From positions 55,475 through 119,474 of the IMG/VR virus record IMGVR_UViG_3300025889_017816: a stretch of DNA of 64,000 nucleotides. The stretch is one strand, 5' to 3'. The notes under the pieces are model-generated. The model was not told the origin of the DNA. It made no database searches and worked only from the letters and a program-made list of their open reading frames with translations. Positions 22,876 through 64,000 of the stretch are shown here, piece after piece. The DNA comes from a virus. A program made the translations under genes and the position numbers. Every line of letters begins with the position of its first letter. The stretch's first letter is position 1.

Positions 22876-24348
22876 CTATAAAACCAAAATATCGTAAACA
22901 TTACTAAATTCTGTGGCATCCTCTATGGTATTAACCATTGGTTTTCCACGAATATTTAAACTGGTATTTAAAATCATTGGACAACCAGTTTCCTGTTCCC
23001 ATAATTTCAAGAATTTATTAAACCCTGGAGAATCATATTCTGAAACAGTTTGGACTCTAGAGCTTCCATCATGATGTATGATGGCTGGGAATTCATCTGG
23101 TTTTTTACATTGCATTGTGTATTGCATATATGGACTTTCAGAGGTACACATATGAAAATAATTTGATGCTTCTTTTTTAAGGATGGCGGGAGCAAAAGGT
23201 CTGAATTTTTGTCTACGTTTAATTTCGTTTACTTTATCTTTTATTTCAGGACCTCTAGGATCAGCCAGTAAACTTCTGTGACCTAAAGCTCTTGGTCCAA
23301 ACTCTGCTCTACCATTAGCAATACCAACAATTTTATGTTTTTTTAAAGCATCTACTAATTGTTCGGCTGGATACTTACCTTTAATATCATGTCCTAAAAA
23401 TGCATTATTAAAAAGCATAGATTGTTTTCTTTGAGCAGCAACCGCACCCAAACTGTTACCTGCATCACCTGGGTTAGGCATGATCCACACATTTTTGAAA
23501 TAAGTATGTGCAATAGAATTAGCTACACAATTTAATGCACATCCACCCGCAAGAACTAAATTATCCGATGGTACTAATTCTTTGGCTTTGTGCAACAAAT
23601 CATGAAAATATAATTCATAAACAAATTGTGTGGCTGCTGCAATATCATACTTATCTTGTTCAGAAGATAGTTCGCGCCTCCACCATTTACAACCACGATG
23701 AAGGTTTTCCTTTAACTTAAGATCATGTTTTGTATCAAAGAAGTCTTCCAATATTATTGGAGCATACTTGGATGCGTCTCCATATGCAGCCATACCCATC
23801 AAAATATATTCTTCTTCGTTTGGTTTTAATCCAACACGTTGGGTCATTGCAGAATACCACAATCCTAAACTATGGGGATATTTAACACTAAATTTCTTGT
23901 GTAATTTTTTATTTTTTCCTTCCCATATTGTTGTGGTATCAAATTCACCTATGGCATCAATCACTAAAATGGCAGCATCAGGAAACAAAGAAGTATAATA
24001 ACCACCTGCTGCATGACTTTCGTGGTGATTACCGAACGTTAAATATTTTGGGTCAATATTATATTTCAGTAAATAATCTCTAAAATTATTTTCTTTCCCT
24101 AACCACCCTTGACCTGACATGAATTGTCGGAATGTTTTTGTAAATGGATTTTCATACCATACTACTTCATCTGGTTTGCCAAAATACAAAGCATCTGAAA
24201 TTAAATCATGGTGTAAATGAGCATCATTCTTTTTTCTTGAATAACGTTCACTTTGTGCGGCAAAAAGTATGGTGTTGTGTTTATCCACAACCGTGATTGC
24301 TGCATCATGGCTATTTGCTGATATTCCCCAACTAATCATATTATTCAT
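22876..24348 (-). CDS. NodU/CmcH-family carbamoyltransferase
   Basis: A 490-residue O-carbamoyltransferase that moves a carbamoyl group from carbamoyl phosphate, via carbamoyl-AMP, to a hydroxyl. The N-terminal Kae1-like domain shows the metal motif H-H-E-S-H-A (108-113), A-Y-G-D, and 'LAGGCALNCVAN'. The C-terminal YrdC-like part has 'EFGPRALGHRSLLADP'. Known relatives decorate Nod factors, cephamycin, tobramycin and novobiocin, and a metavirome-derived member was reported to carbamoylate 5-hydroxymethylcytosine in DNA. The acceptor here is therefore either a sugar made by this cassette or a modified base. It is the last gene of the cassette. Confidence 0.88.
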   Translation of the reverse strand: MNNMISWGISANSHDAAITVVDKHNTILFAAQSERYSRKKNDAHLHHDLISDALYFGKPDEVVWYENPFTKTFRQFMSGQGWLGKENNFRDYLLKYNIDPKYLTFGNHHESHAAGGYYTSLFPDAAILVIDAIGEFDTTTIWEGKNKKLHKKFSVKYPHSLGLWYSAMTQRVGLKPNEEEYILMGMAAYGDASKYAPIILEDFFDTKHDLKLKENLHRGCKWWRRELSSEQDKYDIAAATQFVYELYFHDLLHKAKELVPSDNLVLAGGCALNCVANSIAHTYFKNVWIMPNPGDAGNSLGAVAAQRKQSMLFNNAFLGHDIKGKYPAEQLVDALKKHKIVGIANGRAEFGPRALGHRSLLADPRGPEIKDKVNEIKRRQKFRPFAPAILKKEASNYFHMCTSESPYMQYTMQCKKPDEFPAIIHHDGSSRVQTVSEYDSPGFNKFLKLWEQETGCPMILNTSLNIRGKPMVNTIEDATEFSNVYDILVL

Positions 24349-49183: not shown

Positions 49184-49963
49184 TCATAAACCCATTTTTT
49201 CTCTAATTTTTGTAGCACTAATTGCTTCAGTTTCATCATCTAATTTAATTTGCTCCACCTTGTAACCAACATCACGTCCATAATAAACACCTGTGATATT
49301 AGGAGCTCTCATTATCTTATACATCCCAAAGTATTTATTACCTAGAGCACGGTTAATGCCTAATTCAACTTCACGGAAATTAAAAGGATTTTTACTGTCT
49401 CCATGAGTATCACGAATTACTATTAATACTTGTCCTTCTTTTTTCAACATGGTCTCAAATAATTTCTTGTGACCATCATGAAATGGTTGAAATCTACCAA
49501 TCATTAATGCAGTTGGTTTCTTGTCATCAAACTTTGTGAACATAGAATTCATGAACATAGCTCTTTCAAATATTATGTCCAGTAAACTAGGTTCGTTCCA
49601 ATCCATGACCTGATAATCTATATCATGTATGCCTGGAGCTTCGAACATCTTGTTTGTGTCTGTGAATCTACCTTCACGAATTGTATTCATCCATATTGTA
49701 TAATCTGCATCAAATATATCTCTGGTTTCTTTTGTAGGACAAACAAAGTCACAAACACTATTCTTGCCCATGTTTTCAGCAACCATACTTAAATTTTTCA
49801 TGCGCTCTGCTTGACGTAATCTAGCTTCTGGAGAAAAATCCCAGTCATTAAAACTTTTTCTAATTTCGTCTGCATTAAAATGTACTGCATCAAATTTCTT
49901 TGCTAATTTTTCTGAGAAAGTAGTTTTCCCAGATCCAGGTAATCCCATAACTAATATTCTCAT
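49184..49963 (-). CDS. Fused P-loop kinase and HIGH-type nucleotidyltransferase
   Basis: A 259-residue bifunctional protein. Residues 1-120 are an adenylylsulfate-kinase-like P-loop domain (G-L-P-G-S-G-K-T at 7-14, 'HFNADEIRK' at 28-36). Residues 150-259 are a cytidylyltransferase/NMN-adenylyltransferase-like domain: 'MIGRFQPFHDGH' with H-D-G-H at 162-165 and 'ISATKIREKM' near the end. NadR fuses the same two types in the opposite order. NAD synthesis from a nucleoside precursor or activation of a phosphorylated sugar or alcohol are the main options. Coupled to purA by a four-base overlap. Confidence 0.8.
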   Translation of the reverse strand: MRILVMGLPGSGKTTFSEKLAKKFDAVHFNADEIRKSFNDWDFSPEARLRQAERMKNLSMVAENMGKNSVCDFVCPTKETRDIFDADYTIWMNTIREGRFTDTNKMFEAPGIHDIDYQVMDWNEPSLLDIIFERAMFMNSMFTKFDDKKPTALMIGRFQPFHDGHKKLFETMLKKEGQVLIVIRDTHGDSKNPFNFREVELGINRALGNKYFGMYKIMRAPNITGVYYGRDVGYKVEQIKLDDETEAISATKIREKMGL

Positions 49964-51003
49964 AAACCCTCTTTCTTAGTAGACCATACAATTTCATTTA
50001 AAGTATGGTGATAATTCCACATAATTGTATTTTCAACAAACTCTTTAAATTCTTTGCTACTATTAAACACATAATTTTGATTTTTAAAATTTACAACCCA
50101 GGTTTTAACTGCATCAAGAACATCCACCTTGTTAATAATTAAGTTGGTAACATTGTTGATATACATGGCCTGAATTACGCCGTCTAATTGTAACCATCGA
50201 ATATGGCGCTTTCTTCCTGTTGTAGCACCAATTTCACCACCAATTTCTTGTATTTTATTGAATACATCAAGATATTGATTTACATCTGCTACTGAGGCAA
50301 AATGTGTTTTATGACCTGAGTATGTTTCATAGGCCTTCATGATACCATAAACGTTACGCCAGTATCTAGGTGCAATACCTGAAATTTGAACACTTGCAGA
50401 TGTGCAACTGCTAGATGTAACATACGGGTAATCACCCCAGTCCAAGTCGATCTGGAATCCTTGGGCGCCTTCACATAACACATCAATTGGAAAATACTCG
50501 CGTCTGTTATAAAAATAATTATATGTATCAATGATTGTGAATAATCCACGCTCATATGGATTCATAACATCAGCAATTCGTTTTCCTGTTCGTGCTACTT
50601 TGTCACGATATGTTGGTCCAATACCTTGACCTGTAGTACCCAACTTTACGTCTTTGGTATCCTCATCAATGTGTTCAGGCATTGTTACATGGGCTCGTTG
50701 GTCCACGAATACTTTACCATTGTACCCAAGAGAGCGAAGCATTGATATTTCTTCATTTAGCTTTGATATGTTAACAACACATCCAGCTCCTATAATACTA
50801 GGAATATTATAAAATATTCCAACAGGAACTTGGTGTGTTACAATTTTAACGCCGTCATGATAAATGGTGTGTCCTGCGTTCCCACCACCATTAAATCTGA
50901 GCACAGCATCATAATTATTATTTTTTGCTAAATGGTCAGATACTTTACCCTTGCCAGTATCACCAGCTTGTAAATCAATTACAATATCAGCATTACCAAT
51001 CAT
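49960..51003 (-). CDS. purA: Adenylosuccinate synthetase (PurA/PurZ superfamily, catalytic Asp retained)
   Basis: A 347-residue GTP-dependent ligase joining aspartate to IMP. The P-loop is 'DLQAGDTGKGK' (10-20), then 'GGGNAGHTI', 'GTTGQGIGPTYRDKVAR', 'CEGAQGFQIDLDWGDYPYVTSS' and 'GATTGRKRHIRWLQL'. Asp15 sits at the catalytic position of PurA (Asp13 in E. coli), where the Z-genome enzyme PurZ has Ser or another small residue. The neighbouring Thr16 and the compact length instead resemble PurZ. Function as IMP-using PurA is favoured, but a relationship to dZ synthesis cannot be excluded. It is about 85 residues shorter than the bacterial enzyme. Confidence 0.85.
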   Translation of the reverse strand: MIGNADIVIDLQAGDTGKGKVSDHLAKNNNYDAVLRFNGGGNAGHTIYHDGVKIVTHQVPVGIFYNIPSIIGAGCVVNISKLNEEISMLRSLGYNGKVFVDQRAHVTMPEHIDEDTKDVKLGTTGQGIGPTYRDKVARTGKRIADVMNPYERGLFTIIDTYNYFYNRREYFPIDVLCEGAQGFQIDLDWGDYPYVTSSSCTSASVQISGIAPRYWRNVYGIMKAYETYSGHKTHFASVADVNQYLDVFNKIQEIGGEIGATTGRKRHIRWLQLDGVIQAMYINNVTNLIINKVDVLDAVKTWVVNFKNQNYVFNSSKEFKEFVENTIMWNYHHTLNEIVWSTKKEGL

Positions 51004-59570: not shown

Positions 59571-59671
59571 TTGAGTACAGGACTTGCTTGCAAGTCTTCA
59601 GAACTTCAGAGCTTTCTTGCATTGCTCGTTTCTTTATACTGCTACTGGATACTATACAGGGATATTTTGTT

Positions 59672-60151
59672 ATGATTAAGAGTATATTGCGCGACTATTT
59701 TGCTCCATTATCCAAAGCTTCTGTTCCGTCATTATCTAACGGAGATTTAGCTACATCAATCTTTGTTGCGCGATATCTTTCAACTCGTAGTCGTGCTTCT
59801 AGAGCGCGTGTTGGGTGTGTTATATGGGATACTTCTTTGCGTACCATTGTTTCTATTGGTTATAACGGTACTGCTCCTGGAGCTGATAACACTATGGAAA
59901 TAGATAACGTTACATTACCTTCTGTGATTCATGCAGAAATTAATGCTTTAAGCAAGTTATCATGGGTGCAACGATATAAGCGCTCGTTAGTGCTTGTATG
60001 TACTCATCTTCCATGTATATCTTGTGCTTCTGCAATAACCAAAACGAAAATATCCCACGTTTACTACCTGGATAACTACGGGAGTTTGGATGGTTTGCGA
60101 TACTTGCGTTCGTTTCCTCATATGAAAATTACACGGGTTATACCACAATAA
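59672..60151 (+). CDS. cd: dCMP deaminase
   Basis: A 159-residue cytidine/deoxycytidylate deaminase-fold enzyme making dUMP for thymidylate synthesis. 'GYNGTAPG' (63-70), H-A-E (87-89, zinc ligand and proton shuttle) and P-C-I-S-C (114-118, two Cys ligands) are all present. The ATG at 59672 is used; an in-frame reading 28 codons longer starts in the promoter leader and does not resemble the family. Slightly shorter than T4 Cd (193 residues). It is the first gene on the plus strand after the iteron region. Confidence 0.87.
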   Translation: MIKSILRDYFAPLSKASVPSLSNGDLATSIFVARYLSTRSRASRARVGCVIWDTSLRTIVSIGYNGTAPGADNTMEIDNVTLPSVIHAEINALSKLSWVQRYKRSLVLVCTHLPCISCASAITKTKISHVYYLDNYGSLDGLRYLRSFPHMKITRVIPQ

Positions 60152-60660
60152 TGTATTTCTTATACCAGAAAAATAATGTATTGTTAATATCTAGGAAAAC
60201 TGCTCGGGAGCTTGGTTTTGCACACGAGTTGTTGTCACGGTTTCATAAGATCCAGGATTGTATATCATATATAGGTAAATATTATGCTGGTATAAGTTAT
60301 GTTACCGATGCCACCGTGAAAAGCATCCATCATGGACACACGCCTGAGGGAAAGCAGCGTATTGCTGAGGCAAAGCGAAATGATAATCCAAACAAGTATG
60401 GTTTAAGTGAAGAGCACAAGCGCAAAATATCAGAAAGCATGAAATTGGTAAGAAAGCATACCGTTCATCCAATGCAAGATCGTAAGCATCGACCTATGAG
60501 CAAAGCAAAAACGGGAGATACTATGCGCAAATCTTGGAAAAAAGATCCAAAGATCTGGGTAGTATCTCCCGAAGGAAAAGAATACAGAGTATCTAAATCC
60601 TTTGTTTTACCCGAAGGATGGTCTCGTGGACGTAGTCGTAAGCCATATATGCGTTTATGA
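60151..60660 (+). CDS. NUMOD3-type DNA-binding protein (homing-endonuclease relative, no nuclease domain seen)
   Basis: A 169-residue basic protein. Residues about 58-105 hold two NUMOD3-like motifs ('GHTPEGKQRIAEAKRND' and 'GLSEEHKRKISESMK'), the DNA-contacting helices of GIY-YIG and HNH homing endonucleases, and a later K-A-K-T-G-D-T-M-R-K-S segment resembles a third. 'VSPEGKEYRVSKSF' near the end looks like an IPA-type DNA-recognition fold. No GIY-YIG or HNH catalytic motif is visible, so it may be a remnant or a regulator. TAATG overlap with dCMP deaminase. Confidence 0.65.
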   Translation: MYFLYQKNNVLLISRKTARELGFAHELLSRFHKIQDCISYIGKYYAGISYVTDATVKSIHHGHTPEGKQRIAEAKRNDNPNKYGLSEEHKRKISESMKLVRKHTVHPMQDRKHRPMSKAKTGDTMRKSWKKDPKIWVVSPEGKEYRVSKSFVLPEGWSRGRSRKPYMRL

Positions 60661-60830: not shown

Positions 60831-60889
60831 ATTTTCTTTGACTCCAGTAAGTATAATAATAGAAACATTACAACGATAAACTTAACCAT
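60827..60889 (-). CDS. 20-residue hydrophobic peptide
   Basis: Reads M-V-K-F-I-V-V-M-F-L-L-L-Y-L-L-E-S-K-K-I. Its ATG overlaps the stop of the Pro/Arg-rich lipoprotein (TAATG) and its stop overlaps the next lipoprotein start (ATGA). The double coupling argues that it is translated, either as a membrane peptide or as a coupling leader. Confidence 0.5.
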   Translation of the reverse strand: MVKFIVVMFLLLYLLESKKI

Positions 60890-61287
60890 TATCTTATAAT
60901 GCCGCGATCTGGTGTTGGTTTTGGCGACGGAGTTTCATCACCACCTCTTGGTCTTGCTGGTCTATCTGGACGAGGCATTGGTCTATCAGGTCTAACATCA
61001 GGTCTGGCATCAGGTCTAGGTCTCATTGGACCTTGTGGGTTCTGTGGTCTAGCATTAATAATGATTGGACCTCTTGGTAATATTCTTGGGTTATAATAAT
61101 ACCAACTATCCATATAAGGATATCCCATTGTCCATGGATACCAAGGATTCCAGTTTCTTTGTACTGTAGGCATTGTGAACTTTCTTACCTTTACTGGTTC
61201 AACATCGTTAGTAGGCATTTCATATAGATTAATTGTGCATGATGATGTAATTAATAGTCCTACGAGTATGAAAAGCGAACGTTTCAT
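60889..61287 (-). CDS. Proline/arginine-rich lipoprotein
   Basis: A 132-residue exported protein. Signal peptide with a lipobox-like T-S-S-C (Cys17), a Trp/Tyr/Pro-rich middle (W-N-P-W-Y-P-W, 48-54), then a long Pro/Arg/Asp-rich tail with R-P-D repeats (about 88-115). Proline-rich lipoproteins are typical of outer-membrane spanin subunits, though this is larger than Rz1. A peptidoglycan- or LPS-binding role is the alternative. AGGAGGATAAC precedes the ATG. Confidence 0.68.
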   Translation of the reverse strand: MKRSLFILVGLLITSSCTINLYEMPTNDVEPVKVRKFTMPTVQRNWNPWYPWTMGYPYMDSWYYYNPRILPRGPIIINARPQNPQGPMRPRPDARPDVRPDRPMPRPDRPARPRGGDETPSPKPTPDRGIIR

Positions 61288-61296
61288 GTTATCCTC

Positions 61297-62109
61297 CTAA
61301 AATTGAAATTGTGTTCCAACCATGAATATTACTGGATTACTCTTTTTGAACCCTACTAATTCTGTTATCGGGTCAAATGTTTTATTTAATCTAAAATTGG
61401 TGTTTAAAACAAATCTATCGGTTAACTTCCAATCTAATGAAGTTCCATAATATAAATCTAAATTAGTATCGTTAAAATAAAAACCATTCAACTCACCAAA
61501 GTCATCTTTGTATATGCTGAATATGTCTACCAGTGCAAATATCTGTGGTGATATATCTATTCTTTGTGTTTCAAAGGTATAGGTATACATCAACATACCT
61601 CTTCCTACTATGTTACTAGATGCTGGTAAAAACCCATCCTCGTCTTCGTATTCTCCCCAAGTAGTTTCAGACACGTTTATATTGTATCCAAATGTGCCTT
61701 TTTTTGATGGGAACAATTCTATTAATGAAATACTAATATCTTTTTGAAAATCAAAGTCAGAAGCAAAAAATGCTTGTAGGGTAGAAATTTTATTATTACT
61801 TACCTTACTGATACCGTAACCAAACCCATAATAGTCCCATGCGGGATTTAAAGATGAAAGAAACGAGTGGCTCCATTTCCCACTTAAAGAAGACTTACTG
61901 TATCCTAGATTTAAGGTTGTAGATACTTTTCCATCAACAACGCCTATGGATAAATTAGAGGATGATAATACATCTTTTTGAAAATCAACATAGGACTCTA
62001 AAACATCTACATCGTTCCACTCAGAACTTTCATCAAACAACTCTTTGTCATTTGGGTCTTGTGCTGTTAAGGATGTTGGAATTAATAATAATAATAAAAA
62101 TTTCTTCAT
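61297..62109 (-). CDS. Exported outer-membrane beta-barrel-like protein, 270 residues
   Basis: Signal peptide 'MKKFLLLLLIPTSLTAQ' with cleavage after A-Q or A-x-A-type residues, an acidic mature start, then alternating beta-strand pattern through the chain and a final '...MVGTQFQF' ending in Phe, the classical C-terminal strand signal for BAM-dependent insertion. Reasonable functions are surface modification, superinfection exclusion or release. No family recognised. A strong AAGGAG site precedes the ATG, and the next exported gene lies 12 bases upstream. Confidence 0.65.
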   Translation of the reverse strand: MKKFLLLLLIPTSLTAQDPNDKELFDESSEWNDVDVLESYVDFQKDVLSSSNLSIGVVDGKVSTTLNLGYSKSSLSGKWSHSFLSSLNPAWDYYGFGYGISKVSNNKISTLQAFFASDFDFQKDISISLIELFPSKKGTFGYNINVSETTWGEYEDEDGFLPASSNIVGRGMLMYTYTFETQRIDISPQIFALVDIFSIYKDDFGELNGFYFNDTNLDLYYGTSLDWKLTDRFVLNTNFRLNKTFDPITELVGFKKSNPVIFMVGTQFQF

Positions 62110-62121
62110 GTATACTCCTTT

Positions 62122-63741
62122 TTAGAATGTTACAGAACTTCCGATCATCAAGTAATTTAATACTGGACTACCTTTTGATATCATCATTCTATATGCACCC
62201 ATTAGTCCAAAGCGTCTGGTAAAACTATATGCTAACCCAGACCCTACCATAGTATTTATTGTTCCAGATACGGAAAAACCAGAAACCGTGTTATATGATA
62301 TCGGACTTGTAATTAAAAATAACTGCGGTGACGATGAAAATCTAGATGTCAATTGAACCATTGGTGGCATATAAAACATGATAACACTGGTACCAAACAT
62401 TGGCTTGTATCCTTCTTCACCGTTCATTAACATGGTTAACCCACCAGCACTAACACCCCAAACACCACCTTTGTCATCAGGCAATACTTCGGTTCTGCTA
62501 GCCATCATTAGTATATTACCGTTCAAATAGGCAAACACACCTGAGTAATTGTAAACACCAAGAAGTTCTCCTTGAGATAATCCCATTTTTGTGTATGCAC
62601 CTGCCATGGCAAATTGTTGTAAATCACTCCATATTACAGCAGTTGCACCATAACTTTTATCACCCATTAAGGAACTTCTTGAAGCACCAACCGTACTAAT
62701 TGATGTTAAACTACCATCAGCATTTTGTCCTACGGTTAAGTTGGCAGCAACAATAATAGGGTTTGGTGTGCCTTCAGAACTTTCCTCAGATTCTTCTTCA
62801 CTAGATTCTTCAGATTCCTCACTGGATTCCTCACCAGATTCTTCAGAGCTTTCGTCTCCACCACCCTCATCACCACCACCTTCGTCACCGCCGCCACCCT
62901 CATCACCACCACCAGATGTATCTTCTGAGGAAGATGTATCACCACCCGAATCACTACTGCTATTAGAATCTCCACTACTAGAGTCTCCACTACTGCTACT
63001 ACTTTGTTCATTACTAGAACTACTAGAGCTACTAGATTGCTCGTTACTGGATGATGAATTTGATGATGTACTGCTAGACGATGAACTACTGGACGATGAA
63101 CTTGATGATGTACTGCTACTTGACGAGGTACTACTTGTTGATGTAGTATTACCAGACGAAGGAGCAGGAGCACTAGAAGTTGTTGGAGTAGGTGTAGAAG
63201 AAGCAGTACTACTTGCCGTACTTGATGCCGTGGACGATGCTGTACTGCTTGCTGTAGATGATGCTGTACTAGAAGCAGTAGAACTGGCAGCACTGGTTGC
63301 TGCGCTACTAGCCGCTCCACCTGCTGCGGAACTAGCTGCACTACTGGCTGCTGAACTAGCCGCGGAACTGGCAGCACTACTGGCTGCTGAACTAGCTGCA
63401 CTACTTGCCGCCGCACTAGCTGCAGCACTGGCTGCCTGGGTAGCAGCTTGTGTAGCAGCCTGGGTTGCTGTTTGTGTTACAACTGGATTATCTACAACTG
63501 GACATGGAACATATGCAGTTACTTGTGCAACCCATTTTTCTAAATCACCATTTCTTGCTTGTGTTGCTGTAAATATTTTGGATATACCACGATAGAAAAC
63601 CATTACACCAATGTTTTCCATAGGGAAGGTTGCTGTTTTTACTGTATTGTCACAAGGATCAATCCATGTAGAAACAACAACCTGTGCCTCTAGGTTATTT
63701 GCAAATAGTAAAAAGGCTAATGCAAATAATATCTTTTTCAT
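62122..63741 (-). CDS. Exported protein with Ala/Ser and acidic low-complexity linker and C-terminal beta-barrel-like domain
   Basis: A 539-residue protein. Residues 1-19 are a signal peptide (ending L-E-A-Q). Residues 20-90 are a small folded domain with two Cys pairs. About 92-185 is an Ala/Ser/Thr repeat tract (Q-A-A-T, S-S-A-A units), 185-265 Ser-rich, 265-330 Asp/Glu/Gly-rich. Residues about 330-539 are beta-rich and end '...MIGSSVTF' in Phe, as in outer-membrane barrels. The linker DNA is made of short near-identical units and is prone to slippage. The ATG overlaps the nuclease stop (ATGA). Confidence 0.65.
   Translation of the reverse strand: MKKILFALAFLLFANNLEAQVVVSTWIDPCDNTVKTATFPMENIGVMVFYRGISKIFTATQARNGDLEKWVAQVTAYVPCPVVDNPVVTQTATQAATQAATQAASAAASAAASSAASSAASSAASSAASSAASSAASSAAGGAASSAATSAASSTASSTASSTASSTASSTASSTASSTASSTPTPTTSSAPAPSSGNTTSTSSTSSSSSTSSSSSSSSSSSSSTSSNSSSSNEQSSSSSSSSNEQSSSSSGDSSSGDSNSSSDSGGDTSSSEDTSGGGDEGGGGDEGGGDEGGGDESSEESGEESSEESEESSEEESEESSEGTPNPIIVAANLTVGQNADGSLTSISTVGASRSSLMGDKSYGATAVIWSDLQQFAMAGAYTKMGLSQGELLGVYNYSGVFAYLNGNILMMASRTEVLPDDKGGVWGVSAGGLTMLMNGEEGYKPMFGTSVIMFYMPPMVQLTSRFSSSPQLFLITSPISYNTVSGFSVSGTINTMVGSGLAYSFTRRFGLMGAYRMMISKGSPVLNYLMIGSSVTF
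62800..63470 (-). repeat. Low-complexity coding repeat tract (Ala/Ser, Ser, Asp/Glu/Gly)
   Basis: Codon-level repeats such as alternating GCT/GCA and AGC/AGT units encode long runs of Ala, Ser, then Ser-Asp-Glu-Gly. This part of the gene is GC-richer than its flanks and its length is likely to vary between genomes. Confidence 0.8.
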
Positions 63742-64000
63742 TTTCTTAGTGCAGCAATACTATCCAAAGGAACAATGTGATCTAAGAAAGAATTTGTTTT
63801 TTCAGGAACATTAGGAAATACATATCCTGTAATTTCTCCTGTAGCAACAATCTCAATAATTTTCCAACAATGGGTTGGAACTGATAAACGATTTACTTTT
63901 CTTTCTTCACCAACACAACCTGCTTCAATACGAATTGTGTCGTGTTCTTCTGCAAGTTTTCTAGTGTAATCTTCTAATGACTTCCACTGACCACGATTCA
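63738..64000 (-). CDS. DNA/RNA non-specific endonuclease, C-terminal part (cut by window edge)
   Basis: The last 86-87 codons of a longer gene. 'RGQWKSLEDYTRKLAEEHD', the G-C-V-G-E-E-R spacing, 'VPTHCWKIIEIV', 'GYVFPN' and 'HIVPLDSI' follow the C-terminal half of the Endonuclease_NS (NucA/EndoG) family, where this region follows the D-R-G-H active site, which would lie outside the window. Members are often secreted. The gene is coupled (ATGA) to the exported barrel-like protein, so it may be exported too. The start is not visible. Confidence 0.7.
   Translation of the reverse strand, partial: NRGQWKSLEDYTRKLAEEHDTIRIEAGCVGEERKVNRLSVPTHCWKIIEIVATGEITGYVFPNVPEKTNSFLDHIVPLDSIAALRK

Follow-up and report, generated by a model that had tools for sequence, protein, structure and literature searches.

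Two families of predicted outer-membrane β-barrels within a co-linear exported gene module of T4-like phages

Why would a T4-like phage encode proteins that look destined for the outer membrane of its host? The question is raised by two adjacent genes at the extreme end of a 119,474-base virus record (IMG/VR IMGVR_UViG_3300025889_017816), of which bases 55475-119474, a stretch of 64,000 nucleotides referred to here as the window, were analysed. The same record carries a gp23 major capsid protein (E 2e-140) as well as genes for a baseplate hub/lysozyme, an ssDNA-binding protein (SSB), a ligase and a DNA end protector; the source virus is a T4-like phage, and its hosts are aquatic bacteria. The original prediction described two consecutive genes; they do lie at the stated places, and the run on the minus strand is wider and includes a nuclease gene upstream and a lipoprotein gene downstream. 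The end of the nuclease gene (63738-63998; C-terminal part of a DNA/RNA non-specific endonuclease, PF01223, Pfam 1.7e-11, cut by the contig end) overlaps by 4 bp the gene for a 539-aa protein, here called LONGB (62122-63741), which is followed after 12 bp by the gene for a 270-aa protein, BARREL (61297-62109), and after another 9 bp by that for a small Pro-rich lipoprotein of 132 aa (60889-61287; lipobox-like SSC at residues 15-17). With the contig stopping at this point, no more than these four genes can be seen. A full-length relative of the nuclease in another locus, L006, matches PF01223 at 1.5e-37, and signal peptides are present in the full-length relatives of the window nuclease. In relatives LONGB is preceded by lp30 lipoproteins, to which the 132-aa lipoprotein is similar by eye; an HMM search for this relation gave no match.

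Elsewhere in the window, a plus-strand ORF of 169 aa (60151-60660) beside a dCMP deaminase gene (59588-60151) has a weak, sub-threshold NUMOD3 motif and is a possible homing-endonuclease remnant. Two minus-strand genes, which resemble in PHROGs a Nol-like carbamoyltransferase (22876-24348) and a 2-aminooxy-adenylosuccinate synthetase (49960-51003), are a hint that this phage may have sugars or nucleotides that are modified.

Both proteins start with Sec-type signal peptides that end in A/Q, namely MKKFLLLLLIPTSLTA/Q in BARREL (residues 1-16, 62062-62109, minus strand, with predicted cleavage before Q17) and MKKILFALAFLLFANNLEA/Q in LONGB (residues 1-19, 63685-63741, minus strand). Signal peptides ending in this manner are a common form in Bacteroidota. 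A heuristic signal-peptide pattern was found in 110 of 130 members of the two families, some of the remainder being truncated, and the A/Q cleavage pattern is kept in most members of the BARREL family.

Structure prediction lent weight to the further expectation that the bodies of both proteins are rich in β-strands, since both ORFs model as barrels. For BARREL, an AlphaFold2 model built on an alignment of viral homologues (43 family members) has 10-12 strands with a core pLDDT of ~75-88, although confidence for the whole chain is moderate (pLDDT 68, pTM 0.60). Its top PDB matches are nearly all outer-membrane proteins, the best including EspP, FapF, CymA and BrkA, with just one match at E <= 0.001. 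The in/out alternation of hydrophobic residues was equally high in 23 of 2000 shuffles, and this above-chance value supports a barrel. No significant Pfam or PHROG match was obtained for BARREL, and its assignment as an outer-membrane β-barrel, at moderate confidence in the fold, is supported by the model. In two relatives a second, divergent barrel-like ORF of 254 aa lies in tandem directly after BARREL (L025:8801-9565 and L042:2486-3250).

LONGB is built of three parts, all encoded on the minus strand: an N-terminal head domain (residues 20-82, 63496-63684), a linker (residues 83-326, 62764-63495) and a C-terminal barrel domain (residues 327-539, 62125-62763). The AlphaFold2 model, likewise based on viral homologues, places a 12-strand barrel at a pLDDT of mostly 80-92, and 93 PDB matches were found at E <= 0.001, nearly all top ones being outer-membrane proteins (NanC, FapF, KdgM, OmpG and NalP). 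The alternation test gave no support, with 1660 of 2000 shuffles equally high; it is weak for this protein because the strands alternate hydrophobic with small residues. LONGB had no significant match in Pfam or PHROGs, and the confident 12-strand model supports its reading as an outer-membrane barrel. The head contains two invariant cysteines (C30 and C80) and an invariant tryptophan (W70), and between the window copy and those of L005 and L003 it is 63-73% identical, compared with 42-43% for the barrel domains. The original prediction had described some 240 residues of Ala/Ser and acidic repeats joining the export head to the body, and counting bears this out: the linker of 244 aa consists of an Ala/Ser helix followed by a Ser/Gly/Glu/Asp low-complexity stretch (S 102, A 42, T 26, G 22, E 21, D 10), modelled as a helix at 86-136 and with the rest mostly below pLDDT 50. 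The head-linker-barrel layout is kept in 36 non-redundant LONGB members, with linkers of 136-244 aa, so the linker is not a frame artefact. The C-terminal Phe proposed as a common mark of the two proteins is conserved in the family of the 270-aa protein (79 of 81 members), whereas LONGB proteins end in Leu (47 of 49) and the Phe of the window copy is an exception.

The barrel domains of BARREL and LONGB are paralogous (hhalign 98.6%, and 97.5% when repeated with larger sets). P7, a neighbouring protein considered as a third paralogue, showed no relation in profile comparisons. Relatives of BARREL were found at 78 IMG/VR loci and, with few exceptions, are 52-64% identical; those of LONGB were found at no fewer than 134 loci with one query, and those of E4, another exported protein encoded nearby, at a minimum of 489. 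All three are under purifying selection, with median dN/dS of 0.14 for BARREL, 0.23 for LONGB and 0.10 for E4. In INPHARED the BARREL and LONGB ORFs of the window had no match, and the E4 and lectin proteins of relatives retrieved four records, all of Flavobacterium phage immuto. We also considered a host origin of the barrels; within the limited sensitivity and sampling of these searches, a scan of GTDB contigs contained no relative of BARREL, and profiles of BARREL and E4 found none in 297 Bacteroidota genomes. The set of barrels, lectins, lipoproteins and nuclease is virus-only so far. As far as tested, neither the barrel families nor E4 match Pfam, PHROGs or NCBIfam, and in a literature search whose coverage was partial, for Immutovirus too, we found no description of the barrel families, E4 or the module; hence the barrel families and the module appear to be undescribed so far. 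That the phage itself encodes outer-membrane barrels is upheld by the gp23 gene on the same contig together with the barrel models and PDB matches, but the notion that phages seldom carry such proteins was overstated: Lom of lambda is a classic example, and phage outer-membrane barrels are numerous in the viral structure library, among them proteins from Aeromonas phage phiAS5 and Vibrio phage nt-1. The likeness of these library proteins to the present barrels is at the level of the fold, with ~10% sequence identity in structural alignments.

What surrounds the two genes in relatives was addressed by clustering and HMM assignment of families over 242 viral loci. Across about 240 of these, the same families recur as a co-linear exported or envelope module whose products comprise secreted lectin/LCCL/cohesin proteins (A), barrels, lipoproteins, small membrane proteins, E4, an exported nuclease and a lipase. 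In the main clade the order is m6 - A (~550 aa) - A (640-870 aa) - BARREL - two lipoproteins - m5 - m3 - h8/h10 - (lipase) - E4 - P7 or lp30 - LONGB, and in the clade of the window (L003, L005, L084, L085 and L184-L188) it is m6 - A - lipoprotein - m5 - m3 - h10 - (BARREL) - E4 - nuclease - LONGB - lipase. Where enough flanking sequence was available, a secreted A protein is encoded within 1.5 kb before BARREL in 57 of 60 non-redundant loci, and LONGB lies within 5 kb after E4 in 57 of 61. The A proteins bear domains of extracellular type (LCCL at 7e-13, C-type lectin and cohesin), a class 3 lipase gene occurs in some loci, and the lipoproteins of loci other than immuto have sub-threshold matches to Por_Secre_tail (9e-4 to 0.011). 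BARREL is absent from the stretch seen in L084, L085, L184 and L186-L188; its absence from these window-clade relatives and a negative profile search in immuto indicate that it is not essential to the module. Neither the nuclease (33 of 242 loci) nor an endolysin is a fixed member, each being present in part of the loci only.

The loci differ in further respects. A TonB-dependent receptor (Plug plus OMP_b-brl_3) is encoded in 30 of 242 (e.g. L011:10332-12611, L039:14028-16407 and L259:781-3264), often with a lipoprotein next to it, and the nearest cellular homologue found is 68% identical (Aquirufa antheringensis). By the module of L006 (11523-12302) and at other loci lies a gene for an LpxH-like phosphoesterase (NCBIfam PRK05340, 8e-14, below cut-off), for which modification of lipid A is a possible role. 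Strong Shine-Dalgarno sites precede 26 of 89 genes in the window record (including L081-L083) and 10 of 26 in L003 and L005, as against 12 of 848 genes in other loci and none of 22 in immuto; with such contrasting use, the module seems to span phages whose hosts differ in their translation-start habits.

That the pair is part of a widespread module had escaped the original prediction, as had the existence of a cultured representative, which is available in Flavobacterium phage vB_FspM_immuto (genus Immutovirus, MW353175; host Flavobacterium sp. LMO8). Its genes 12-15 encode an Endonuclease_NS protein (1e-25), a C-type lectin (3e-15), an A-like protein and a cohesin protein with a Por_Secre_tail, and genes 16-19 encode m5, E4, LONGB and m6; in the deposited annotation gene 12 is called endonuclease G, gene 13 lectin and gene 15 cohesin, and genes 14 and 16-19 are listed as hypothetical. 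Gene 15 (L088:12691-13422) matches cohesin at 6e-9 and Por_Secre_tail at 2.4e-8, the only case in which the latter lies above the Pfam cut-off, and because it bears this type IX secretion sorting tail, its product may leave the cell via the type IX secretion system (T9SS) of the host. LONGB of immuto has diverged strongly (19-22% identical along the whole alignment) and its linker is without the AASS repeat, yet the head is still detectable (E 2e-13). Compared with the modules of the main clade and the window, immuto thus shares nuclease, C-type lectin, cohesin, m5, E4, LONGB and m6, whereas BARREL was not found by profile search. Immuto genes 12-19 come after those for DNA polymerase, recombinase, helicase and RNR, and clamp-loader genes adjoin the module in some relatives, which fits an action during infection and not at its end. 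With immuto, the module has a host among the Bacteroidota and can be studied in the laboratory, and a T9SS sorting signal is seen on a phage protein.

Given the computed export signals, barrel folds, co-linearity, purifying selection and phage ownership, we infer a surface location, relations among the partners and a benefit to the phage as follows. The infected cell would make BARREL and LONGB and send them through its own Sec pathway and BAM to the outer membrane, as their signal peptides and predicted folds suggest. BARREL, being encoded right after the large secreted A proteins, may anchor these or pass them to the surface, and LONGB, with its flexible rod, may position the two-cysteine head across the outer membrane or outside it, in a layout like that of FapF. 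Partners would be the secreted lectin/LCCL/cohesin proteins, the lipoproteins with T9SS-tail-like segments, the small inner-membrane proteins, E4 and the nuclease. The coat of the cell would thereby change and either adhere to neighbouring cells or particles or be masked against other phages, while the exported nuclease could destroy incoming DNA. We give such remodelling of the surface by phage-encoded barrels and a virus-only envelope module an even chance of being correct. It is favoured by neighbours with extracellular binding domains and by the position of the module next to replication genes in immuto and some others; the genomic context at large, with secreted lectin and cohesin proteins, lipoproteins and the TonB receptor, favours it too among the three roles that the original prediction had put forward, the others being a block of superinfection and release. 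A more specific form, which we put forward tentatively and regard as rather doubtful, is that the two barrel families, E4 and m6 constitute a virus-built outer-membrane machinery displaying lectin/cohesin adhesins for ‘sibling capture’ and the exclusion of rivals. In aquatic T4-like phages this display might make use of the host type IX system or run alongside it, and before lysis the infected cells would stick to fresh hosts or particles.

The same gene set could be read as a release module, in which barrels, lipase, small membrane proteins and the envelope-spanning linker of LONGB would act at lysis in the manner of spanins or pinholins, by disrupting the layers of the envelope or tying them together. 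An endolysin (PG_binding_1 plus GH19) adjoins the module in about 12 loci, in L005 in the order LONGB-lipase-endolysin, the small transmembrane proteins m3, h8, h10 and m5 look holin-like by eye, the Ala-rich, TolA-like rod of LONGB could span the periplasm, and a release role has been proposed for the CsgGF proteins of phage Melnitz (PMC9004378). On the other hand, a PHROG search matched the small membrane proteins to no holin or spanin family, lectin, cohesin, LCCL and TonB-receptor domains are without an evident role in lysis, and the immuto module lies beside replication genes, the closest gene annotated as a glucosaminidase being ~6 kb away; we find release an unlikely purpose. Similarly improbable, in our judgement, is a function in superinfection exclusion specifically, with barrels and lipoproteins occupying or hiding a receptor and the exported nuclease degrading incoming DNA. 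Endonuclease_NS does adjoin LONGB in the window clade, the window included, and recurs in the immuto module, and the phage protein Cor is known to inactivate the receptor FhuA (PMC11436027), but the nuclease is encoded in a small share of the loci and could instead recycle host or environmental DNA, and the large lectin/cohesin proteins exceed what receptor blocking needs.

An uptake function, with the barrels acting as porins that, together with TonB receptors, lectins and lipase, feed the cell during long infections, would be in keeping with NanC, KdgM and OmpG among the closest PDB folds of LONGB and with the true TonB-dependent receptor and neighbouring lipoprotein of some relatives. We think it improbable to a further degree, as these receptors occur in a minority of loci, no module gene was recognised as coding for an inner-membrane transporter or a catabolic enzyme, and a simple porin needs neither the conserved head nor the long linker of LONGB. 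C-type lectin folds occur in some phage receptor-binding proteins, which could point to virion components such as tail fibres or head decoration. Virion parts or folds other than barrels were what the original prediction had named as speaking against it; the folds model as barrels, signal peptides conserved in both families argue strongly against a place in the virion, and no significant match to any PHROGs virion family was found, leaving this reading with very little probability. Slightest of all is the prospect, suggested by the location at a contig end, that the genes belong to a host and that the contig was mis-assembled or mis-called, in view of gp23 on the same contig, the internal position of the module in numerous long contigs of phages as well as in the genome of a cultured one, and the searches of Bacteroidota genomes and GTDB contigs described above.

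Surface remodelling, the reading we prefer, may be set against systems already known. In Bacteroidota, PorP/SprF of the T9SS is an outer-membrane barrel encoded beside large secreted adhesins; the present barrels were rejected as members of that family (hhalign probabilities of 3.9 and 6.5%, no PF11751 match). Partial type VIII CsgG/CsgF genes are carried by pelagimyophages, the OM43 phage Melnitz and a Bacteroidetes T4-like viral genome (PMC7029224, PMC9004378, PMC7198788), and ‘sibling capture’ was proposed for the curli genes of pelagimyophages (PMC7029224). These phages are likewise T4-like and aquatic and combine an outer-membrane pore with unexplained exported partners, so that the same hypotheses apply, but the barrels described here are single-chain with 10-12 strands. 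CsgG had no Pfam match among the module proteins tested; E4, suspected from its sequence layout, and m6 were both dismissed as CsgG (hhalign below 4% for E4 with small and larger alignments, and 0.3% for m6), and PDB matches gave this reading of either protein no support. FapF, the secretion porin for functional amyloid in Pseudomonas, consists of an N-terminal helical domain, a disordered linker and a 12-strand barrel (PMC5557850), a layout that LONGB shares in architecture only (TM about 0.5-0.6 by target length). The LONGB head is instead a small β/α domain with two Cys, and its linker measures 244 aa compared with ~40; no sequence relation to FapF was detected, and no genes for Fap fibres or amyloid subunits were recognised among the module neighbours. 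Lom, Bor and Cor, associated with lambda, are phage-made envelope proteins that change the host surface (PMC8065619, PMC11436027), although these are single accessory genes of temperate enteric phages, whereas here a multi-gene module is found in T4-like phages.

With Lom, Bor, Cor and the barrels of the viral structure library on record, phage outer-membrane barrels are a kind already known. So far, however, the phage outer-membrane proteins known have mostly come from lone genes of temperate phages or from pelagimyophages, whose curli pores are unexplained. The gene set described here, present in at least hundreds of aquatic viral contigs and in immuto, links two new barrel families with lectin/cohesin proteins, lipoproteins and a nuclease, and a cultured phage-host pair makes the purpose of outer-membrane pores in lytic phages directly testable. 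If the proposed remodelling is true, the surface of an infected cell would be of viral making, and this would bear on aggregation, superinfection and carbon flow.
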